21,051 nt of DNA from a virus, in IMG/VR virus record IMGVR_UViG_3300037861_000339, positions 1 through 21,051 of that record; one strand, given 5' to 3'. The first letter of the stretch is position 1; each line of letters starts with the position of its first letter. Shown piece by piece: positions 80-13,945 of this stretch. Below the pieces are notes generated by a model. That model searched no databases. It was not told where the DNA came from and saw nothing but the letters and a program-made list of their open reading frames with translations. A program made the translations under genes and the position numbers.

Positions 80-1672
80 CTATTTTTTCAGCGTATGCCC
101 TTTGAACAATGGCAAGAAAACTTTGTCGTGTTTTTGTTTGATAAGCTTAAAAACCTGCTTACTATATCTCCAGTAGAGTGGGATATCAAAAGTATCAGAG
201 AAGTGAGTCGCATGTTGCTGAGGCAAGACCTTAGACTTCTCGCTTCGTTTATCTTTTACAATTGTGTTGGATTTATTGCCAGCAAGAGCTGGAGCATTCT
301 CTAATGATATAATAAGATCCTGGCAATTGTTCTCGTTGATTTCAATTGCAGGCAATCCCATTGTACCACCATGTTTCAATAAGTAATTGATCACTATAAA
401 CTTCTCGTTATGCGGTGGATTCTCGGCACCTTTGCGCACCTTGACTAAAACCTTCCAGCCTTGACGCTTCAAACAATCAATCGCCTGCTCTGCAAACGTT
501 ACTCTAGAGTTGGGCGTTTTATTGTTACCATTACGGTCATAATAGAACTCGATCGCGTTATTGTGTTTCTTTTTATCCTCATAGTAAGGAGCAAACTCTT
601 CATCAATTAAGTCGTCAATGATCTTGGGTGAGTTCACATAGAAAGTCTTGAGACAACGGTAGCGTTCCCCCTGGTCTTGTGATACCTTAAGCGTGATGAT
701 ATTACCCCAGTCAATGGTCAGGATAAGCGGCTTACTCTTCATGTAATCCGTGTCTTGATTGCAATTGAAATCCTTAGCCTTAGCACGTACACCTACTCCT
801 TCAAGGTATACCATATCATAGGCATTGCGGTAATAATGCTTCTTTGGGTCCAGCTGTGGATAGAATCCATTAGTAACCTTGGCAGGTCGTATATTCCTGA
901 TCTCTGCATCATAATGCATCACGCTTGGTGCGTTGTCTCGCATTCTTTCGAACCAAGAAGAACTAAGATTGTGCTTATTGACTGCTGCCGGAGCTTTGAC
1001 AAATAACACCTTCCAAGGTTCTTTCTTAGCTAACGCATCCAAGTCAGTGAACCATTGCCCTTTCTTAGTCATAGCGACAGAAGACGCATATATCTCAGCA
1101 TTACACAACGGCTGATCTTCATATAAACCGCCACAAGTGGAGCGGTTTGTAGTTTGAACATTATTAAACAACTTCACATGATCCAGCAACGCTGCCTCAT
1201 CCCCAATTACAACTGAAGAGTTCAATCCACGACCCGCATCAGTTTGATCGTTGCTGACTAATTGCCAAACAAACCCATTTGAAAAGTGAATCGTATTGTC
1301 CCAGTTCTTGCTGGGCGACTGGAAAGGCATTTCAAAACCAAGGCTTTTTCCACACTTTCCTACGACATAATCGATGTCTTCATATATCCCAAACATCGCC
1401 AATCCCGCCTTAGTAGAGGGTAGTGTCCTGGATAAGATTTGCTGATACGTTTCGCCGACTATTATTCCAGTTGCTTTAGGCATTTGCATTACGGCTTCTT
1501 TGACAAACCAGCCTAATATTGTTGACTTCCCAGAACCACGAGCCCATTCTAAAACAATGGTTTTAATATACATCTCCACCAAAGTAATTAGATTCATTAC
1601 CTTTTTACTAGCTTTGGCTATCGTGACTATTTGAGCAAGATTGAGCTCGATTTCGTTATTCTTCATCTTCAT
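80..1672 (-). CDS. terL: Phage terminase large subunit (packaging ATPase and nuclease)
   Basis: This is the motor that cuts phage DNA and pumps it into the prohead. The N-terminal ATPase has a Walker A motif, ARGSGKST, at residues 44-51 and a Walker B motif, VVIGDEA, at 154-160. The C-terminal RNase H-like nuclease shows the expected acidic residues: D321 in ILTIDWG, D379 in YYDRNGN, and D493/D496 in HFSDTFD. The 530 aa length is normal for the family. The start overlaps the end of the small-subunit gene by 17 bases. The first ATG sits directly against an AAAGGAGG sequence and the in-frame ATG two codons later has better spacing, so translation may begin at residue 3. The stop is followed by a terminator-like hairpin. 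Function is clear from the motifs; which packaging type (cos or pac) it serves cannot be told. Confidence 0.93.
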   Translation of the reverse strand: MKMKNNEIELNLAQIVTIAKASKKVMNLITLVEMYIKTIVLEWARGSGKSTILGWFVKEAVMQMPKATGIIVGETYQQILSRTLPSTKAGLAMFGIYEDIDYVVGKCGKSLGFEMPFQSPSKNWDNTIHFSNGFVWQLVSNDQTDAGRGLNSSVVIGDEAALLDHVKLFNNVQTTNRSTCGGLYEDQPLCNAEIYASSVAMTKKGQWFTDLDALAKKEPWKVLFVKAPAAVNKHNLSSSWFERMRDNAPSVMHYDAEIRNIRPAKVTNGFYPQLDPKKHYYRNAYDMVYLEGVGVRAKAKDFNCNQDTDYMKSKPLILTIDWGNIITLKVSQDQGERYRCLKTFYVNSPKIIDDLIDEEFAPYYEDKKKHNNAIEFYYDRNGNNKTPNSRVTFAEQAIDCLKRQGWKVLVKVRKGAENPPHNEKFIVINYLLKHGGTMGLPAIEINENNCQDLIISLENAPALAGNKSNTIVKDKRSEKSKVLPQQHATHFSDTFDIPLYWRYSKQVFKLIKQKHDKVFLPLFKGHTLKK

Positions 1673-2234
1673 CCTCCTTTACATCTTCATAATCGATATC
1701 CTCTGAATTCATATCATTGAAATCAATTAAACCACCATCTGTTCGACCCTCTAATGCTTTCAATACAGATGGGTGTACTTTCAATATATAGGTTTGTGCT
1801 TTCAATTTTTCTGGATCAAAATTTGGATCAGTATCTTTATCAAAACCACCAATTTTAATCCTTTGCGCGATCACTTTCAATTCTAATGCTCCATCTTTAT
1901 CCTTGATAGCTCGCTGTTGCAAACGCATTAGATCCTCCTCAATTAGGTAGCGCTTAGCTTCCTTGTGATTCTTTAATATATCTCCAAAAATCGCCAAAGA
2001 ATCATTGACATAGCGATACGCCTGAGCACGGCTAGAACCATCATTCACTAACACCGAAACAGCCTGTTCCTTGGAATGATAATTTATCATCAAGTTCCAC
2101 GCTTTGGATATTTTTATACGAGTTTCTTCTTGTGACTCGCTTAATGTAACGGTGTGTTCACCCTTGAGATAGTACTTGCGTATTTTATCCAGGGTTGTGA
2201 CTTTCTTTCGAAGAATGACCGCATTAGAACTCAT
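1656..2234 (-). CDS. terS: Probable terminase small subunit
   Basis: The 192 aa protein lies directly upstream of, and overlapping, the large terminase gene, which is the usual place for the DNA-recognition subunit. A helix-turn-helix-like segment is seen near residues 55-85 (AVSVLVNDGSSRAQAYRYV), followed by helical, charged sequence and a very acidic C-terminus (DYEDVKEDEDEE). Small terminase subunits diverge strongly, so the call rests on position, size and the HTH more than on conserved residues. Its transcript probably starts between it and the hairpin at 2291-2321, but I see no exact TAnnTTTG box there. Overlap with terL suggests translational coupling. Confidence 0.72.
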   Translation of the reverse strand: MSSNAVILRKKVTTLDKIRKYYLKGEHTVTLSESQEETRIKISKAWNLMINYHSKEQAVSVLVNDGSSRAQAYRYVNDSLAIFGDILKNHKEAKRYLIEEDLMRLQQRAIKDKDGALELKVIAQRIKIGGFDKDTDPNFDPEKLKAQTYILKVHPSVLKALEGRTDGGLIDFNDMNSEDIDYEDVKEDEDEE

Positions 2235-2290
2235 ATTGCTATTATTTTAATGCAAGGTCATAAACGGTAAGTGTAGAAAAAAGGACAAAT

Positions 2291-2321
2291 AAAAAAGCCC
2301 CACGTTTAGTGAGGCTTTTTT
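2291..2321 (-). terminator. Intrinsic terminator of the moron gene
   Basis: A 13 bp stem with one mismatch (2291-2303 with 2309-2321) and a 5-base loop, with A-rich and T-rich flanks on either side, so it can work in both directions. It begins 4 bases past the stop of the 361 aa membrane-protein gene and separates that gene from terS. Confidence 0.85.
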
Positions 2322-2324
2322 ATT

Positions 2325-3410
2325 TTATTTTGGTGTTGGTATTTTTGCTAATACTTTATTTAAAACACCCGTTACAAACTTTATTTTAGAAGGATCGTCT
2401 TCTTCTTTTTTTTCAATAGTATTGCTTTGCATTCGCTCAAAATAATTGATAATTTGGTTCCATTTCAAAGTTTCTCTCTTGTGCTCTATATTAACTTTTG
2501 ATTCACTTATATGGATGTTTATTTCATTAGTATCGGGATCTTCGTAATCTTTAACTATTGCTAAACCATACTCATTTAATGCTTGAGCTATATTGCCAGA
2601 AACAGAATAAATAGCAGACATGTTTCTCTTATCTTGATTAATTTTTTCATAGGTAATTAGTAACCCTTTTATTAAAGCATAACCTCCTGTAAATACTGCA
2701 CTTAAGCATAATGCCCAAGGTAATTTCAAAACTAATATTCCAAAAGCATAATTAATAATTGGCATTGAGCCTGCTTTGGCATCTAAAGCTAGAACATAAG
2801 CGTTATAATTGTCAAAAGATTTGAGTAAATTAGGAATACTAATTGCGATCGTCAATCCAATTGCTACAACTACAAGAACTATTACTGCCGTATAAAGTTT
2901 CATATTATTGTTTGTTTCTTCTATAAAATCTTTAAACTGATTAATTAGCCTTACCTTGCTTTTAGCATCCTGTTCTGCTAAATTAATGTCCTGTTTAGCA
3001 ATATTTTCTGCAACTTTAATAGCTTTTAAAGCTTTTTCATTAGCCGTTTTAACCGTAGTATTAATCGAACTTATTTTACTTTCAAGCTCAATATTTTTCG
3101 AATTTATTTCAATATCTAATTCATCTCTAGTTTTTCTTAACTCTTCGATTTCTTTACTAATAATCGATACAAATGAATGAAATGAAGAACCTTCAACCGA
3201 ATCTCCCTCCTTACCAATTAAATCATTTAAAGTAGATATTCTTGATTCTAGTTTCCCAATTTGCTTTTTCTTAGATGCAATATTTTTTTTTAATAAATCG
3301 TCATTTATTAAATGATCAAAATCTATGTGCTTAAAATCTTCTGCTAATTTCGAAAGTCCAGCATTACTATTTTCATAATGTTCAATAGGCAAATAAGTGG
3401 CAAAACTCAC
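2325..3410 (-). CDS. Coiled-coil protein with two membrane segments (moron candidate)
   Basis: I do not recognise a family. The 361 aa protein has a long charged, coiled-coil-like N-terminal half (about residues 40-165, rich in K, E, S and I), hydrophobic segments at about 172-192 and 222-252, and a charged cytoplasm-like tail rich in K and E. This layout suggests an inner-membrane protein with a long helical arm. The apparent start is GTG (GGAGTGAGT); no in-frame ATG lies near the N-terminus. An in-frame short ORF ends 18 bases upstream, so the gene may once have been longer. The gene has its own promoter-like box and terminators on both sides, unlike the operons around it, and it interrupts the order methyltransferase-terminase. 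A lysogenic-conversion or superinfection-exclusion role is guesswork from that layout. Confidence 0.7.
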   Translation of the reverse strand: MSFATYLPIEHYENSNAGLSKLAEDFKHIDFDHLINDDLLKKNIASKKKQIGKLESRISTLNDLIGKEGDSVEGSSFHSFVSIISKEIEELRKTRDELDIEINSKNIELESKISSINTTVKTANEKALKAIKVAENIAKQDINLAEQDAKSKVRLINQFKDFIEETNNNMKLYTAVIVLVVVAIGLTIAISIPNLLKSFDNYNAYVLALDAKAGSMPIINYAFGILVLKLPWALCLSAVFTGGYALIKGLLITYEKINQDKRNMSAIYSVSGNIAQALNEYGLAIVKDYEDPDTNEINIHISESKVNIEHKRETLKWNQIINYFERMQSNTIEKKEEDDPSKIKFVTGVLNKVLAKIPTPK

Positions 3411-3428
3411 TCCGTGAGCAGATACTAA

Positions 3429-3497
3429 TTAAGGTAATTTTTCAATAATTAGTTTTAAATCACTAATGTGATCTTCATAATCTACTTCTTCTTCCAT
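3429..3497 (-). CDS. 22-codon ORF in frame upstream of the membrane-protein gene
   Basis: Starts ATG, begins MEEEVDYEDH and ends in KLP then TAA. It lies in the same frame as the 361 aa gene: after the TAA, codons read L V S A H G and then the GTG start. Without the stop, the two would make one 390 aa protein with a plausible helical junction. It could be a leader peptide, or the original N-terminus cut off by a nonsense mutation. It is too short to judge by coding statistics. Confidence 0.35.
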   Translation of the reverse strand: MEEEVDYEDHISDLKLIIEKLP

Positions 3498-3521
3498 ATT
3501 TAATTTGTTTCGGTTAGAGAA

Positions 3522-3550
3522 CAAACCTACAAAAAAAATATAAAACAAAG
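3522..3550 (-). promoter_or_regulatory. Bacteroidetes-type promoter for the moron unit
   Basis: On the minus strand TAGGTTTG (3529-3522) matches the flavobacterial -7 consensus TAnnTTTG exactly. A CTTTG at 3550-3546, 16 bases upstream, could serve as the -33 TTG element, slightly closer than the usual 17-23. The -33 element lies in the arm of the preceding terminator, making a compact terminator-promoter junction. The ATG of the short ORF follows 24 bases downstream. Confidence 0.5.
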
Positions 3551-3573
3551 GCCTCAGAAGAAGTGAGGCCTTT
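3547..3573 (-). terminator. Intrinsic terminator after the ParB-methyltransferase gene
   Basis: A perfect 10 bp stem, AAAGGCCTCA with TGAGGCCTTT, and a 7-base loop, with T-rich sequence on both strands. It starts 2 bases after the stop of the methyltransferase gene and isolates the moron from upstream transcription. Confidence 0.88.
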
Positions 3574-3575
3574 AT

Positions 3576-4859
3576 TTATTCAAAATATTTATCGATTTCA
3601 ATTTTCGATAAAACTTCTCCATTTTTTAAGAGTTCAAAGTCCAAGTGATTTTCACGCATGTACTTAACCCATCTCCTCACATCGACATCAACATATCGAG
3701 GATCAAGTTCAATCCCGCGACATTGCCTCCAGTTCATTTCACAACAAATTAAAGTAGTACCAGAACCAAGGAATGGATCACCAATGATATCACTCTGTTT
3801 TGAACTATTTTTCATCAAGTAAGTAAATAAATCAACAGGCTTCATTGTAGGATGATCTTCGCTTCTTATCGGTTTATTAAATTCAATCACAGTGGTTTGC
3901 TTCCGGTCAGAATACCAGTTATGCGCAGCGCCTTCTTTCCATCCATAAAGTACAGGTTCGTGTTTCCATTGGTAATCTTGGCGACCCATTACGATGGAGT
4001 TTTTTAACCAAATAAGGCATTGAGCTAGTTTATAACCGCCATCCTTTAGCGCGTTTCTAAAATTAGCACCTTCACTATCTGCATGAAAAACATAAATACC
4101 ACCACCCAATTGTGTATGATCACAAGCCGTTTTATAAAATTCAAAGAGAAAGGTGTAAAAGTCGGCACTAGTCATATTATCATTTTCAATCTGCAACTTA
4201 TCTTTAGTGCCCCCGGTATAATTTACGTTATATGGTGGATCAGTCAATACGAGATCAAATAATTTTCCCTCAAGTAATGCTTCATAAACTTCTGGCGATC
4301 GACTATCTCCACAAACCACACGATGCACGAGTTTCTTTTGTTTCGAATGCATCTCATAAACATCGCCTAAAACTGTGATAGGTTCTTTTGGCAACACTGG
4401 ATCAAAGTCAGTTTCCTCTTCTGATTGTAGTTCCATAGGCAAACCATCATCTGGCAATGGAATATCATCTACATTTAATCCAAGAGACAACAAATCAATA
4501 TCCGTAAAAATGGCATTCAAAATATCAATATCCCATTCTCCAACAGATACATTCGAGCGAATATTGTACTCTTTAAACTCTAATTCAGTCAGTTCGCGAT
4601 TGGGAACACGAACATCAATATCCTCTTCGCCTCTTCCTATTTCCAAAAGAACAACAACACGCTGATGGCCAGCAATGATGATGTTATCTGTATTGATAGC
4701 AGGAATTTCAGCAAGGTTGTATTTTTCTAAACTCTCTCGAAGCTTTTGTTTTTTGTCTTCAGACAGTTTTCGGGGATTGTACTCGTAAGGAATTAAATCC
4801 TTTACTTTTCTTTTTTGGGTTGACCACTCCAGCGGAGCTAATAATAATAAATTACTCAT
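3576..4859 (-). CDS. ParB-domain DNA methyltransferase (beta-class, N6A or N4C)
   Basis: The 427 aa protein joins a ParB/sulfiredoxin-like N-terminal domain (PYEYNPRKLS at 24-33, AGHQRV at 63-68) to an S-adenosylmethionine-dependent amino-methyltransferase. Motif IV, TDPPYNV, at 206-212 comes before motif I, DPFLGSGTT, at 361-369, which is the beta-class order. HEPVLYGWK (300-308) and HPTMKPV (336-342) are typical of this phage group. DPPY points to methylation of an exocyclic amino group (adenine N6 or cytosine N4). Its start overlaps the end of the upstream gene by 8 bases, so the two are translationally coupled. There is no endonuclease beside it, so it is an orphan enzyme, probably shielding phage DNA from host restriction or marking it for packaging or replication. 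Confidence 0.9.
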   Translation of the reverse strand: MSNLLLLAPLEWSTQKRKVKDLIPYEYNPRKLSEDKKQKLRESLEKYNLAEIPAINTDNIIIAGHQRVVVLLEIGRGEEDIDVRVPNRELTELEFKEYNIRSNVSVGEWDIDILNAIFTDIDLLSLGLNVDDIPLPDDGLPMELQSEEETDFDPVLPKEPITVLGDVYEMHSKQKKLVHRVVCGDSRSPEVYEALLEGKLFDLVLTDPPYNVNYTGGTKDKLQIENDNMTSADFYTFLFEFYKTACDHTQLGGGIYVFHADSEGANFRNALKDGGYKLAQCLIWLKNSIVMGRQDYQWKHEPVLYGWKEGAAHNWYSDRKQTTVIEFNKPIRSEDHPTMKPVDLFTYLMKNSSKQSDIIGDPFLGSGTTLICCEMNWRQCRGIELDPRYVDVDVRRWVKYMRENHLDFELLKNGEVLSKIEIDKYFE

Positions 4860-5592
4860 CTTTCAAAATTTTTCTAATCGTTTCTAAATCAATTTTTAGT
4901 TGCTCCAGTTGCTCCAGCTTTCGGTTTAGCAAAGAGAGAAGTCCACGTTCTTCTGGAGACGCTTTTAGCTGCTCCTTCATCACATCGATTGTTTTCTCTC
5001 GTTTACTAATCCTAGACTGTAGGTTGTCCCTAAGCTTTACTAGTTGAATTCCGTTCAGCTTTTTGAAGTCCTCGCTTTCCTCCGTTGGCATAACTCTATT
5101 GTGATCTTTCCAGTGATCTAGAATCATCCAGGCTCTATCAATCTTGGTCCACAGATCTTCGAGTTGAATGATAATGGTAAGCGCACTATTTTCGTCATCA
5201 TCTTCAAGTAAGTTCAATTGGAATTTGAGCTCACAAGAATGATAAAAATCATTCACACGTTGACGGTAAGTGGAATGCAATTGCGGTGGATACATTGCCA
5301 TCGTTTCTTTCTGAAAAGAAACAGCAACCGACTGTTTTATAATTTCCTGCAATAAAGGCTTGGCTTTAGGTATAGGATTAACCACATCCATAGCCTTTTC
5401 TATTTTAGGAGTAATCGTAGGTTTTTCAGAAAACGAAGCCTTTTTGAGTTCGTATTTCAGTTTAAGAAAATTAGCTGTTGATTCCTTCCCGAAGCTTCTC
5501 AGCACATTGCTATTGCAAGAGGCTAATTTGCTGTAAAGCAAAACCCCATCATCGTAAGAACCGGAATAAGCAAACCAACCATGGATATTCAT
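4852..5592 (-). CDS. Conserved-looking phage protein with C-terminal coiled coil, function unknown
   Basis: The reading frame stays open to 5640, but that extension runs through a terminator hairpin and would give an unlikely hydrophobic start, so I place the start at the ATG at 5592 (MNIHGWFAY), giving 246 aa. The N-terminal 45 residues are aromatic and compact; a middle segment (YPPQLHSTYRQRVNDFYHSCELKF in part) precedes a helical tail of about 70 residues with heptad-like leucines (LLSLLNRKLEQLEQLKIDL in part). It overlaps the start of the ParB-methyltransferase gene by 8 bases. Proteins starting IHxWFxxSG... with this layout seem familiar from Bacteroidetes phages, but I cannot name a function. 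Confidence 0.75.
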   Translation of the reverse strand: MNIHGWFAYSGSYDDGVLLYSKLASCNSNVLRSFGKESTANFLKLKYELKKASFSEKPTITPKIEKAMDVVNPIPKAKPLLQEIIKQSVAVSFQKETMAMYPPQLHSTYRQRVNDFYHSCELKFQLNLLEDDDENSALTIIIQLEDLWTKIDRAWMILDHWKDHNRVMPTEESEDFKKLNGIQLVKLRDNLQSRISKREKTIDVMKEQLKASPEERGLLSLLNRKLEQLEQLKIDLETIRKILKDE

Positions 5593-5604
5593 AAAAAACC
5601 ATTT

Positions 5605-5637
5605 AAAAAAAAGTCCGAGCATTACACCCAGACTTTT
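5605..5637 (-). terminator. Intrinsic terminator ending the capsid gene cluster
   Basis: On the minus strand AAAAGTCTG pairs with CGGACTTTT (9 bp with one T-G wobble, 11-base loop), followed by eight T. It lies between the 101 aa gene and the 246 aa gene, ending 13 bases before the ATG of the latter. That leaves no room for a promoter after it, so downstream expression must come from readthrough or from a promoter overlapping the hairpin. Confidence 0.8.
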
Positions 5638-5668
5638 CACTAATTAAAAACCAATAAAAATGAAAAAG

Positions 5669-5974
5669 CTACTTAAATTCTGCTTTTCTTGCTTTTGCAA
5701 ATTCCTGAACTTTCTCACTATCAGGTTTTGCCAAAGCCAAAATTTCTACATCCTCGATGCGTCTTGCTTTTTTGATTAAATGCAATAGATCTGCAATTTT
5801 CGCCTTTTTAAAAAGCTCCTCGGCACCAGGCTTTAATCCCAAATATTGAAATCCTCCTTTGTAGACTTCCAAGGAATTATTTGGAATTCCTGTACGTAAA
5901 TCAAACCTTGCCCCACCGTTTAAAACGAAGGAGCAAGGAATGGCTAGATTTACTATTTCAAAAAACTTATTCAT
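5669..5974 (-). CDS. Small late protein, function unknown
   Basis: The 101 aa protein has a hydrophobic, possibly beta-rich first half (IVNLAIPCSFVLNGGARFDL in part) and a helical, lysine- and glutamate-rich second half. Its ATG overlaps the TAA of the upstream tail-tube-like gene in the arrangement TAATG, so the two are coupled. As the last gene of the capsid cluster before a terminator it is probably a virion or virion-assembly protein. No family recognised. Confidence 0.7.
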   Translation of the reverse strand: MNKFFEIVNLAIPCSFVLNGGARFDLRTGIPNNSLEVYKGGFQYLGLKPGAEELFKKAKIADLLHLIKKARRIEDVEILALAKPDSEKVQEFAKARKAEFK

Positions 5975-10980: not shown

Positions 10981-11089
10981 AATTACAGGTGCGAGATGTT
11001 TACGATAGTTTTTAATTACGGCTATTTAAAGGATAATCATTACTGGCCAGTAGACAGCTAGAAATACAATTACAGGTGAGGCATGTTTA
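10981..11089. repeat. Pair of imperfect 22-base direct repeats
   Basis: The copies are at 10981-11002 and 11068-11089. Both begin AATTACAGGTG and end ATGTTTA, with a four-base core that differs (CGAG and AGGC). The start-to-start distance is 87 bases. No function can be assigned; they may be protein-binding sites or duplicated RNA elements. Confidence 0.6.
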
Positions 11090-11114
11090 GATTTTGAGAA
11101 TATCTTATAAATAG

Positions 11115-11142
11115 AAAATCACCCCTTTTAAAGGATGATTTT
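11115..11142. terminator. Bidirectional terminator-like hairpin
   Basis: AAAATCA (11115-11121) pairs with TGATTTT (11136-11142), with an inner CCTTT/AAAGG pair. T-rich sequence follows on plus (TTTTATGTTTTATG) and on minus (TTTTCTATTT). It could end the plus-strand RNA candidate, or the minus-strand tRNA-like element 10 bases away. Confidence 0.55.
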
Positions 11143-11152
11143 ATGTTTTATG

Positions 11153-11237
11153 AACCATATAAGGATTCGAACCTTTTAACCCCGCGTGACCCACGTGTCG
11201 CATAAAGTTCGTTAAAAAATGCTTGCTGGTTATGGTT
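11153..11237 (-). other. tRNA-like element (decayed tRNA or attachment site)
   Basis: On the minus strand AAGGTTCGAATCCTT is a standard T-arm core. It is followed exactly by TATGGTT, which pairs with AACCATA 85 bases from the outer end, as an acceptor stem should. A hairpin terminator follows. However, no proper D-arm, no U8 and no anticodon loop with U33 can be found, and CCA is not encoded. So this is not a working canonical tRNA by eye. A tRNA remnant, an attP-like copy of a tRNA 3' end, or chance are the options. Confidence 0.35.
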
Positions 11238-11278
11238 AAGGTTTTCTTTATTTCATATCGTTTGGGGTTTTAAGGGTT

Positions 11279-11503
11279 TTAAAAAGGTACTATTTCCTTT
11301 TTAGTAATTTCTTCTAAATTTGTTCTTAAAAATTTAAGCGACTTAAACTTCCCTGTGATAACATAGCCAATAGTACTTCCTTTTAATACTTGCTTGATCA
11401 ACCTTCCTGATTTACAATTATAGCACAATCCGCATTTTGTAAACACATAATTTGGCGCAAATGAAATGCGGTACTTTGCAATATAATTAACAGTGATTAT
11501 CAT
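11279..11503 (-). CDS. Small phage protein resembling homing-nuclease-associated modules
   Basis: The 74 aa protein has the pattern Y-x-ISFxPNYxFTKCG-x-YNCKSGRLIK, then GSTIGYVITGKFKSLKFL. This looks like the modules that precede HNH domains in phage homing endonucleases and that also occur alone. No HNH motif (paired histidines and asparagine) is present, so it has no visible nuclease activity. It is the first phage gene to the left of the R-M cassette, with its start 36 bases from the cassette edge. Before insertion it probably lay directly downstream of the small genes now ending at 13967. Function unknown. Confidence 0.6.
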   Translation of the reverse strand: MIITVNYIAKYRISFAPNYVFTKCGLCYNCKSGRLIKQVLKGSTIGYVITGKFKSLKFLRTNLEEITKKEIVPF

Positions 11504-11549
11504 GGGTTAGCGTGTATTAAAATTAGGTTTAGTGAGTAGTTATAAGCCA

Positions 11550-11582
11550 TTTTGTGAAAAACGAAACTGTAAGATATTTTTA
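11550..11582 (+). promoter_or_regulatory. Promoter candidate for the endonuclease gene
   Basis: TTTTG at 11550-11554 and TATTTTTA at 11575-11582 (7 of 8 matches to TAnnTTTG) are 20 bases apart. The spacing to the ATG at 11609 is suitable. It lies within the cassette, so the endonuclease would carry its own promoter. Confidence 0.35.
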
Positions 11583-11608
11583 TTAACTTGCGGACTTTTA
11601 AGAAAATT

Positions 11609-12448
11609 ATGGAAAGATCAATCGACATAGTAAATAATTCTGAACATTTAAACGAATGGGTTTTAAAAAGTATAAACCTATTTAAAGACACTAATTATTT
11701 AGATCAAATTCTTGCGGTTTATCCTTTTCAAATTGCATCTCCTGAAAGACTTGATTTAAATTTAAGACGAAGAATAATAAATGCACATCAATCAAGAAGA
11801 ACAAATGAATTAATACATATTCTTGAAGGTTTAACTAAATTTCCTTACGAAGACCCGATTTGGTATTTACTAAAAAACATTGAAGGATGTGGTGAAAATA
11901 ATCCAGTGCAAATTGAAAGAATTGCAAATTCTTTGTACTCAATGACTGCAGAGGAAACAGTCGTTAGACTTGAGGCTGCTCCAAAATTAAATACTCAAAT
12001 GGGACCAATGTTTAATGCTTGGTTAAGATTAAACTTTACTCCTTTACCATTAAATCTTTTTCAAGAATCAACAGAAGGAATTTGTATTCTTGATGCTTCT
12101 GAAGAAGTTGGAAAATTATATATTAATGACATTCTCCATCAAAATTTAGACAAAAGACCTGATTTAATAGCAAAGGTAAACAATCAATTAATCATTGGAG
12201 AAGCAAAATGGATAGGACAACCAGGAGGAAATCAAGAGAAACAAGTACAAGAAGTAATAAAATTCTGCAGAAACCAAAGAGGTGCAGTAATTAGAATCGG
12301 AGTTGTAGATGGTTTCCCTTGGTCATTGTTTAATATAAATCACCGTTTAGTGAACAATAAAGAAGCTGTTAATATCCAAGAGTCTGAATATGATATTGTT
12401 AGTTCATTATTGTTGCACGAATATTTAGAAAAATTTCTTAATCAATAG
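11609..12448 (+). CDS. Type II restriction endonuclease, PD-(D/E)XK fold
   Basis: The frame is open from a TTG at 11588, but the ATG at 11609 (MERSIDIVNN) is preferred, giving 279 aa. The catalytic signature is clear: P184-D185 in DKRPDLIAKV, then E198 and K200 in LIIGEAKW, giving PD-x12-E-x-K. The N-terminal half is helical and has no recognised motif; the C-terminal part (EKQVQEVIKFCRNQRGAVIR) is the helix-strand expected after the catalytic core. Its tail overlaps that of the methyltransferase gene by 11 bases in convergent orientation. Together they form a type II-like R-M system cutting DNA that lacks the matching methyl mark. Recognition sequence not predictable here. Confidence 0.8.
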   Translation: MERSIDIVNNSEHLNEWVLKSINLFKDTNYLDQILAVYPFQIASPERLDLNLRRRIINAHQSRRTNELIHILEGLTKFPYEDPIWYLLKNIEGCGENNPVQIERIANSLYSMTAEETVVRLEAAPKLNTQMGPMFNAWLRLNFTPLPLNLFQESTEGICILDASEEVGKLYINDILHQNLDKRPDLIAKVNNQLIIGEAKWIGQPGGNQEKQVQEVIKFCRNQRGAVIRIGVVDGFPWSLFNINHRLVNNKEAVNIQESEYDIVSSLLLHEYLEKFLNQ

Positions 12449-13736
12449 AAACATACTCATAAAAATTACACTTAACTTTCTCTTTTTTAAATGTTTGTTT
12501 TATGACATCAAACGATTGGTTAGAATTATCAATACCTATCCAATTTCTCTTTAATAGATTTGCAACTAAAAGTGTACTTCCAGAACCTGCAAAACAATCC
12601 ATAATAAGAGAATCTTTATTTGAAGAATTTAAAATAATTCTTTTCAATAAATCGTGATTTTTTTGCGTAGGATATTCAACATATGAAAGTCCTTTATCTT
12701 TAAATGCCCAAACATCTTGGACTTTTTTTCCTTTATGTTCATTTGCAAAAACCATTTTTCTTGGATTTCCATTTGCAGACCATTCTATTAATCCTAAATT
12801 ATCTAATCTAGTTAGTTCTTCTCTGCTGTATCGCCAATGTCTGCCTTTTGGTGGTAGAATTCCTTTCCATTCTTTTCCAGTGTCTCCATCAATAGTAATT
12901 CCCGGAGCGTGAATAGGATTTGTTGTATATCTACCATAAATAGGGTGAATTTTCGAAAAATTATCTATTTCTTCATCTTTTGTCAGAGGTTCTTTAATTT
13001 CATTCCATATATTTTTATCTCTATTTTTAGCGTAAAACAATATCATATCAGAATAATTACCATAAGCATTTCTAGAAAAATTTTTAGGATTGCATTTAAT
13101 TCTAGTAATATCATTAATAAAGTTTTCATAACCAAAAACTTCATCCATAATTATTTTGACATAATGTCCAATTTTTTTATCAATATGTAAATAAATACTT
13201 CCACTTTCAGACATAAAATCTCTTAATAAAAAAAGTCTTTTTCTTAAAAATTCCAAAAATTCACTATTAACTAATTTATCTGAATAAGCGAGATCATTTT
13301 CAATATTTGAAAAATTCAATCCAGTTCCAAAAGGTGGATCAATATAAATTAAATCAACTTTACCTTTAAATTTTGGCAATAAAGACTTTAAAACATAATA
13401 ATTATCTCCAAAAATCATTTTATTAGATAAAATTTGGTTTTCATCATTAATTGATTTCAAAAAACCTAAAGGCTTGTAATTTAATATTTCAATTTCATTA
13501 GATTTACCTTCATAATCTAAATAACAATTACGACTTTTCTTTAAATATAAAGTTTCAGGTTCAGAAACCATAGAGTTAGTTGATAAGAAATTTTCAAATT
13601 CTTGATATGAAACTCTATAACTTTTATTTATTTTTACAGCATTTAACTCTTTCTTTTGTATATATTTAGAAACAGTTTGTCTAGTAATTTTTAATGTTTT
13701 AGCAACATCACCTACGGTCAAAAAATTCTTTTCCAT
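12438..13736 (-). CDS. HTH-fused adenine DNA methyltransferase of the R-M system
   Basis: The N-terminal 50 residues form an excisionase/MerR-type helix-turn-helix (LTVGDVAKTLKITRQTVSKY, then VSYQEFENFL). The rest is a beta-class methyltransferase: DPPFGTG at 133-139 (motif IV), YPTQK at 355-359 and DCFAGSGST at 380-388 (motif I). The DPPF form and YPTQK fit adenine-N6 enzymes. It protects host DNA against the convergent endonuclease. The fused HTH and an inverted repeat ending 7 bases before the ATG suggest that the enzyme represses its own gene, as is known for some other type II methyltransferases with N-terminal HTH domains. It is encoded in the same cassette as the endonuclease. Confidence 0.88.
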   Translation of the reverse strand: MEKNFLTVGDVAKTLKITRQTVSKYIQKKELNAVKINKSYRVSYQEFENFLSTNSMVSEPETLYLKKSRNCYLDYEGKSNEIEILNYKPLGFLKSINDENQILSNKMIFGDNYYVLKSLLPKFKGKVDLIYIDPPFGTGLNFSNIENDLAYSDKLVNSEFLEFLRKRLFLLRDFMSESGSIYLHIDKKIGHYVKIIMDEVFGYENFINDITRIKCNPKNFSRNAYGNYSDMILFYAKNRDKNIWNEIKEPLTKDEEIDNFSKIHPIYGRYTTNPIHAPGITIDGDTGKEWKGILPPKGRHWRYSREELTRLDNLGLIEWSANGNPRKMVFANEHKGKKVQDVWAFKDKGLSYVEYPTQKNHDLLKRIILNSSNKDSLIMDCFAGSGSTLLVANLLKRNWIGIDNSNQSFDVIKQTFKKEKVKCNFYEYVSID

Positions 13737-13742
13737 AATTCA

Positions 13743-13769
13743 TAATTTGACACAAAGTAACACAAATTA
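13743..13769. promoter_or_regulatory. Operator candidate for methyltransferase autoregulation
   Basis: TAATTTG (13743-13749) and CAAATTA (13763-13769) form a perfect 7 bp inverted repeat with a 13-base spacer, ending 7 bases upstream of the methyltransferase ATG. The spacer and flanks also hold ACACAAA twice. The location is right for a site bound by the HTH of the enzyme. Confidence 0.5.
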
Positions 13770-13808
13770 ACATATAAAAACAAGTGACATTTAAAAAAAA
13801 ATAAAAAC

Positions 13809-13945
13809 GGCTTATAACAGCACCTACAAAAAATTGGCGGTTCAGTGGATAAATGAAGTTTTGTGCTTCGTATCAAGTTTTGTGGTGGCAGACAGTTTAG
13901 TGCTTCGAAATCGCCAACTTCTTGTAGCTGCAAACCGTTGTAGGC
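13809..13945. repeat. attC-like 137-base imperfect palindrome
   Basis: Outer arms GCTTATAAC (13810-13818) and GTTGTAGGC (13937-13945) pair over 9 positions with two wobbles. Inner arms, CCTACAAAAAATTGGCGGTT (13823-13842) and the matching stretch AATCGCCAACTTCTTGTAG (13909-13927), pair with an unpaired AC on the left arm. About 66 bases of loop lie between. R''-L''-loop-L'-R' with an extrahelical base is the attC plan, and the length is within the attC range. It has no real ORF; the 71-codon frame across it is a shadow. Confidence 0.6.

Follow-up and report, generated by a model that had tools for sequence, protein, structure and literature searches.

The cassette and its restriction-modification genes

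The window analyzed here, by which we mean the whole stretch of 21,051 bases, is a virus record with genes for a terminase, a protease, and a primase. On its plus strand, a gene cassette extends from crossover to crossover over positions 11540–13937, bounded by exactly complementary end boxes. The G|TT edges at which an earlier interpretation from the letters alone (the sequence-only reading) had placed the crossovers are found at 11539/11540 and 13937/13938, and the cassette is richer in AT than its surroundings (27.7% GC within versus 35.5% outside), as was also proposed there. The whole 2398-base cassette is present with 99.5% identity at the same place in a near relative of the phage (L006/L013).

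The cassette encodes a Tsp45I-type type II restriction endonuclease of 279 amino acids (11609–12448, plus strand; Pfam PF06300, 1e-33, 117 bits over a cut-off of 25 bits) and an N6/N4 DNA methyltransferase of 432 amino acids with an N-terminal helix-turn-helix domain (12438–13736, minus strand; PF01555, N6_N4_Mtase, 3.8e-43; PF12728, HTH_17, 5.1e-13). Both frames are open, and the genes converge with an overlap of 11 bases. The complete restriction-modification (R-M) pair claimed at the outset is therefore present, with a PF06300 nuclease and an N6/N4 methyltransferase of the family lying together as in Tsp45I-type systems. Because the genes are convergent, a single promoter at the left edge cannot serve both, and we infer that they bring promoters of their own.

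The specificity of Tsp45I is GTSAC; outside the cassette this sequence occurs 11 times versus 13.1 expected, which is no clear avoidance. The closest relative of the R-M system, with an endonuclease 65% identical that adjoins its methyltransferase, lies in genome G147. No folded site of the kind described below occurs within the 20 kb examined around it, indicating that the R-M system need not be a cassette. Apart from the R-M pair, the window encodes another DNA methyltransferase (3576–4859, minus strand), whose N-terminal part is ParB-like.

The left cassette edge, GTTATAAGCC (11539–11548, plus strand), is the sole exact reverse complement of positions 13809–13818 in the window, and both sequences are single-copy there, as the claim of a complementary edge had it. 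Pairing between left edge and outer arm reaches 14 of 15 bases. The exact 10-mer arose in 38 of 20,000 shuffles of bases 11039–13808; a 10-base edge match by chance is unlikely. Once the cassette is circular, the left edge is its own R′-like box. The flank of the left junction (11516–11539, plus strand) ends in AGTA|GTT, as does the first junction of the relative phage L008; this flank is possibly a remnant of attI or a secondary site, although the likeness to L008 is weak and could be due to chance.

At the other end, the right box GTTGTAGGC (13937–13945, plus strand) contains the crossover and would be the left edge of a next cassette. No further cassette was found to the right of 13938, where the best box matches at 8 of 10 bases (16136) and is not accompanied by a site. 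An empty site joining 11539 directly to 13938, suggested as a check, was looked for and not found: in viral contigs, the pattern of the left junction matched only the relative with the same insert, and a search with the joined flanks aligned to that relative alone, split into two halves.

The folded site and its family

The cassette ends in an attC-like recombination site (13809–13945, plus strand) of a Bacteroidota family, which scores 134.7 bits with model R1, the site itself being a row of the R1 alignment. Its left outer arm is the R″-like box GGCTTATAAC (13809–13818), followed by the left arm of the inner stem (13820–13839; a covarying helix, columns 13–33 of alignment A1) and, on the other side, by the right arm (13912–13931; columns 111–131). 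The minus strand of 13805–13945 folds with −18.5 kcal/mol (z −1.91; 9 of 200 shuffles as good), whereas the plus strand reaches −14.4 kcal/mol (z 0.05; 91 of 200). At the circular junction, the computed energy of the bottom strand is −23.4 kcal/mol versus −15.0 kcal/mol when integrated, the boxes adding about ten pairs. The large palindrome noted in the sequence-only reading is thus real, as seen from the minus-strand fold and from a stem that covaries across the family. Rfam gave seven sub-threshold matches on the window, none of them at the folded site, and no tRNA was found in the window.

A blastn search with the site matched three Bacteroidota plasmid records and none of 50,697 phage records. 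A pattern scan of genome contigs yielded at least 119 stretches, nearly all of them titled as Bacteroidota or kin, and a profile of 106 elements gave 243 matches in 126 of 132 loci. Alignment A1 comprises 53 varied, hand-picked sites with the conserved parts YAACA and CGTT. In its stem, 85.5% of cells are paired versus 53.4% after shuffling, a percentage favored by a consensus structure drawn from the window and one other row. Double changes number 285 versus 97 in shuffles, and the covariation score is 0.677 versus 0.161, with slid versions of the stem nowhere near. The number of stem pairs with a double change (18 versus 17.4) and of further pair types (50 versus 47.4) shows no excess over shuffles.

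The covariance model built on the 53 sites found a match in 110 of 120 sampled Flavobacteriaceae genomes (E 0.001; up to 27 candidates scored per genome). Across the phylum Bacteroidota, 113 of 198 genomes matched at E 1e-6 and 85 had no match; in a second Bacteroidota-drawn sample, which overlaps the first and was taken around a metagenome-assembled genome (MAG) titled Desulfobulbaceae, 55 of 99 matched. This MAG (L125, genome G448) is itself rich in sites, and because it was taxonomically drawn with Bacteroidota genomes, its title may be wrong. The boxes of the family are GTTR on the right (197 of 203 sites) and end in YAAC on the left (200 of 202), whereas the canonical sequences are rare: GTTRRRY fits 16 of 203 right boxes and RYYYAAC 14 of 202 left boxes; GTTATAA of the window does not fit. 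The cassette in the window thus carries an attC-type folded site at its 3′ end, and in our reading 13809–13945 belongs to an attC family that is widespread in Bacteroidota.

Complementarity of cassette ends across the family

If these units are cassettes, each box that follows a site also opens the following cassette and should match the arm of that cassette's site, not the arm of the site it belongs to. Among 84 adjacent pairs of the first locus set, the mean match was 5.12 of 7 variable bases, with 54 pairs at 6 or 7, versus a mean of 2.52 after shuffling and a highest mean of 2.96 in 1000 shuffles. Left and right boxes within a single site of this set match at 2.57 and 2.73 of 7. The rule also holds in loci outside the model: bacterial loci gave a mean of 4.83, with at least 6 of 7 bases matching in 23 of 40 pairs, and viral loci a mean of 5.40, with 19 of 30 pairs at that level, whereas within-site matches of at least 6 occurred in 2 of 71 bacterial and 1 of 63 viral cases. 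In the first set, 30 of the 84 pairs match at 5 or fewer bases, and since pairs were accepted at distances of up to 6 kb, some of these may reflect sites missed in between.

Across the family, the left box of a cassette matches the arm of its own site far above shuffles. The ends are complementary in the window (10 of 10) as well as family-wide, and in the fold computed for the circle the R boxes are paired.

A tyrosine recombinase beside the arrays

The first locus set contains 17 matching tyrosine recombinase ORFs in 16 loci, including that of L008. In the 12 bacterial loci of this set without an IS91-type gene, sites occur only downstream of the recombinase gene and in the same sense. With one recombinase as query, 85 of 120 Flavobacteriaceae genomes match at E 1e-50, mostly with one match each. 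We compared 40 recombinase loci (∼10 kb per side where the contig allowed) with 19 control regions elsewhere in the same genomes. The covariance model found 176 matches in 33 of the 40 recombinase regions versus a single match in the 19 controls. All matches fall into two layouts: in 29 loci the sites (159 matches) lie downstream of the recombinase gene and share its sense, and in 4 loci (17 matches) they lie upstream of it and have the opposite sense; a less sensitive profile gave 88 and 15 in the same layouts. Four of the seven recombinase loci without a match end at most 170 bases past the gene, and in the remaining three (L142, L158, and L172) sequence beyond the gene is present and contains no site match.

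The edge of the first cassette was located from sequence by complementarity. The best-matching edge lies 29–138 nucleotides from the recombinase gene in 28 of 33 loci (25 of 29 in the downstream and 3 of 4 in the upstream layout), and in 20 of these 28 it matches at 10 of 10 bases; five loci do not fit. The 45 bases before this edge contain a perfect inverted repeat with arms of at least 8 bases in 13 of the 28 loci, versus 0.31 expected from shuffles. Such a repeat, exemplified by ATAAACGCACCGGTGCGTTTAT in L160, could be what attI looks like in this family; it is absent in the window and in L008.

The integron-integrase model TIGR02249 matched all ten recombinases searched, in two stretches and with 138–211 bits, below its cut-off of 265. 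The nearest solved sequences are XerA (5hxy, 1.1e-42), then a XerC-like protein, and then VchIntIA (2a3v, 1.2e-33). The alignment to VchIntIA breaks between its residues 174 and 247, which we take to be where the IntI patch lies. An IntI-specific patch was not found in the integrase, and as judged from this alignment the recombinase appears to be without it. A quick tree, with long branches and no bootstrap, separates the array recombinases from five further ones of F. jejuense and groups 11 of 12 phage recombinases together, with IntI1 and Leef_1 left unplaced. The recombinases of L071, L080, and L086 have N-terminal extensions of varying length without a Pfam match, in which a repeated motif near WSKTLKAWH was noted by eye.

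At three loci (L004, L097, and L123), the tyrosine recombinase adjoins an IS91-type (HUH) transposase gene near arrays. Nor is the palindrome tied to a single transposase, which the sequence-only reading had named as a refutation: among the 16 recombinase loci of the first set, an IS91-type gene occurs in these 3; on plasmid L300, the pair of recombinase and IS91-type genes is present with no site match. On the Myroides odoratimimus plasmid p63039 (L004, 3263–6991), blaOXA and blaMYO-1 are located between family sites and aadS follows the last site, with the pair of tyrosine recombinase and IS91-type transposase alongside.

Relatives of the phage and viral recombinase loci

Relatives of the phage with ∼69–78% DNA identity lack the R-M genes and diverge from the window between ∼10,860 and 15,200. 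Four of them (L008, L009, L010, and L011, the last two alike at this locus) carry model matches there, with the same orientation to the capsid gene that the window shows. Five of the six distinct sites match their own edge at 10 of 10 bases and the sixth at 9 of 10; in L008, a short third unit that is not a model match has ends that match 10 of 10, as found by eye. L012 has no site match at the cassette locus, and the L007 contig stops short of it. Different junctions in relatives without the R-M genes, which had been named as evidence against a cassette, are thus other cassettes of the same family, with L012 lacking a site; this is what a cassette locus predicts.

L008 also encodes a recombinase at the cassette locus, 52 nucleotides from the first edge. 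The statement that no integrase is in view holds for the window, in which the best match of the L008 recombinase has an E value of 2.4, and not for this relative. Likewise, the integrase proposed to act in trans need not act from elsewhere, as one relative encodes an integrase in the locus itself. A second recombinase is present in the L008 contig (a 411-amino acid frame), and the L013 contig has one in a 406-amino acid frame.

A viral scan for relatives of the L008 recombinase retained 80 of 83 loci, some on near-duplicate contigs and with a few overlapping matches, and gave 232 site matches in 64 of the 80. All but four matches (228 of 232) are in the divergent layout, and these four are all in L265. 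A terminase profile matched 17 of 42 contigs tested, some weakly, and did not match that of L008; the viral nature of the contigs therefore rests largely on IMG/VR. In the cultured Polaribacter phages Leef_1 and Freya_10, the layout is divergent and the sites are weaker, as are those of phage P12002L. The best own-edge matches are 10, 9, and 8 of 10 in Leef_1, 9, 9, and 9 in Freya_10, and 10, 8, 8, 7, and 7 in P12002L, where 7 or 8 of 10 is a level that chance also gives. Ingeline_1 has a recombinase and no site match. In viral contig L210, a phage array with five model matches (1662–5970) includes a DNA methyltransferase ORF (5099–5830) between two of them.

Interpretation and alternatives

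Positions 11540–13937 very likely (probability of roughly 0.9) form an integron-type cassette that carries all of a type II R-M system and has been inserted where phages of this group hold their cassettes. The boxes, the folded and covarying site, the arrays, the nearness of the recombinase, the first-cassette edges, and the differing cassettes in relatives can all be read directly in the DNA. The sequence-only reading of an integron cassette gains from the family-wide complementarity of ends, the covarying site, the arrays with a nearby first edge at the recombinase, and the other cassettes in relatives.

The integrase that acted would belong to a tyrosine recombinase lineage close to IntI and Xer that appears to lack the IntI patch and whose genes adjoin arrays in bacteria and in certain phages. 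It would recognize the folded strand of the site, as IntI does, and probably cuts at G|TT. Cassettes would leave as circles, in which their own boxes then pair over ∼10 bp, and would enter at attI or at another attC. The R-M system may shield infected cells or lysogens from other phages while its methyltransferase marks the DNA of the phage that carries it. The site family would thus work like an integron, whereas it falls outside the IntI type as defined by the patch and by GTTRRRY boxes. It is also probable that Bacteroidota and phages share an overlooked integron lineage with patchless integrases and boxes outside GTTRRRY, and that a phage clade encodes its own integron, a swap-in locus for small genes and for anti-phage or counter-defense genes such as R-M.

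As an alternative, the palindrome could be a terminator or a REP- or IS-derived mobile repeat, and the edge match a product of chance. The palindrome does lie at the end of a gene, its integrated fold is only mildly better than shuffles (z −1.91), and IS91-type transposases occur near some arrays. This alternative would not account for own-edge complementarity in three locus sets, for arrays of the same sense, or for the concentration of sites beside one kind of recombinase (33 of 40 regions, one match in 19 controls). Edge complementarity and recombinase association together speak against such an element as the sole account, which we regard as highly improbable. The cassette might instead have arrived from a bacterial array by homologous or illegitimate recombination, at a phage locus without active exchange. 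This would explain why the window holds no integrase and why no empty site was found, and such routes are raised for phage cassettes in the portion of PMC9892861 available. Still, four relatives (two alike) carry different box-matched cassettes, one of them with a recombinase, and the viral recombinases cluster together and have arrays, which makes this route unlikely, if worth keeping in mind.

We consider it improbable that the L008-type recombinase is a lysogeny integrase located beside arrays by coincidence or through a shared hotspot. Bartlau et al. (PMC8776804), in the part of the paper available, take the integrases of such flavophages as signs of temperate life, and in the same part the word "integron" is absent. 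That part, however, tabulates two integrases each for Leef and Ingeline, and L008 and L013 have the additional frames described above. Furthermore, site matches adjoin the recombinase in 64 of 80 viral loci and are divergent in 228 of 232 cases.

Significance and relation to known systems

If this interpretation is true, most Flavobacteriaceae have such arrays, and resistance genes can ride on them, as blaOXA and blaMYO-1 do on the Myroides plasmid. Phages with both cassettes and integrases would offer a direct virus–host route for defense and counter-defense genes. The need for the IntI patch in folded-site recombination would become a testable question, and the presence of a single-strand transposase (IS91-type) beside folded-site cassettes is worth study.

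Integrons of Bacteroidota are reported as few in the text available of PMC9024848 (also PMC8618304, PMC9668308, and PMC2426708, each in part). According to the same portion of PMC9024848, elements with an integrase and no cassettes had been described before, and IntegronFinder 2.0 reports one complete integron, in Salinibacter. The attC models described in the accessible part of PMC8352920 were built for eleven taxa, which do not include Bacteroidota. In its accessible part, a tyrosine recombinase survey (PMC8138268) remarks on an integron-like subgroup in which conservation of the insertion characteristic of integron integrases is incomplete, so that patchless relatives were already noticed by sequence. 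Among the open-access papers listed by full-text searches, a coverage outside which subscription papers and preprints fall, no title or abstract opening contains a description of the site family or of such integrases beside arrays. Within this literature, the integrase lineage, its spread, and the phage-encoded platforms appear new, whereas phage integrons are already published.

A cassette in a flavobacterial phage with no integrase in view had been called unusual at first reading; phage-borne attC clusters, some with methyltransferases, are on record, and five of six phage attC sites tested were active with class 1 IntI, including one of two P12002L sites (PMC9892861, available portion). Model R1 matches P12002L (L214) at five places, one of which has a 10 of 10 own edge, and these may not be the sites assayed in that paper. 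The phage attC clusters of Qi et al. (2023; PMC9892861) share with our locus the DNA-modification cassettes in a flavobacterial phage (methyltransferases in P12002L). They differ in that an integrase of this lineage is not described in the portion available, whereas here the R-M pair is complete and some phages encode a recombinase themselves.

Compared with other Tsp45I-type R-M systems, the locus has the same combination of a PF06300 nuclease with an N6/N4 methyltransferase and differs in being carried as a phage cassette. XerA (5hxy) is the closest solved sequence among the XerA, XerC, and XerD recombinases, whereas the recombinase here is encoded beside cassette arrays. With the IntI integrons (class 1, Vibrio, and other chromosomal integrons), the family shares arrays, a folded attC-like site, G|TT edges, end boxes that are complementary in the circle, and a tyrosine recombinase that adjoins the array with the first junction nearby. 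In contrast to them, its recombinase appears to lack the IntI patch, its boxes consist of GTTR plus variable bases and are mostly not GTTRRRY, and recombinase gene and array share one orientation in 29 of the 33 chromosomal loci that have matches, whereas they are divergent in phages.
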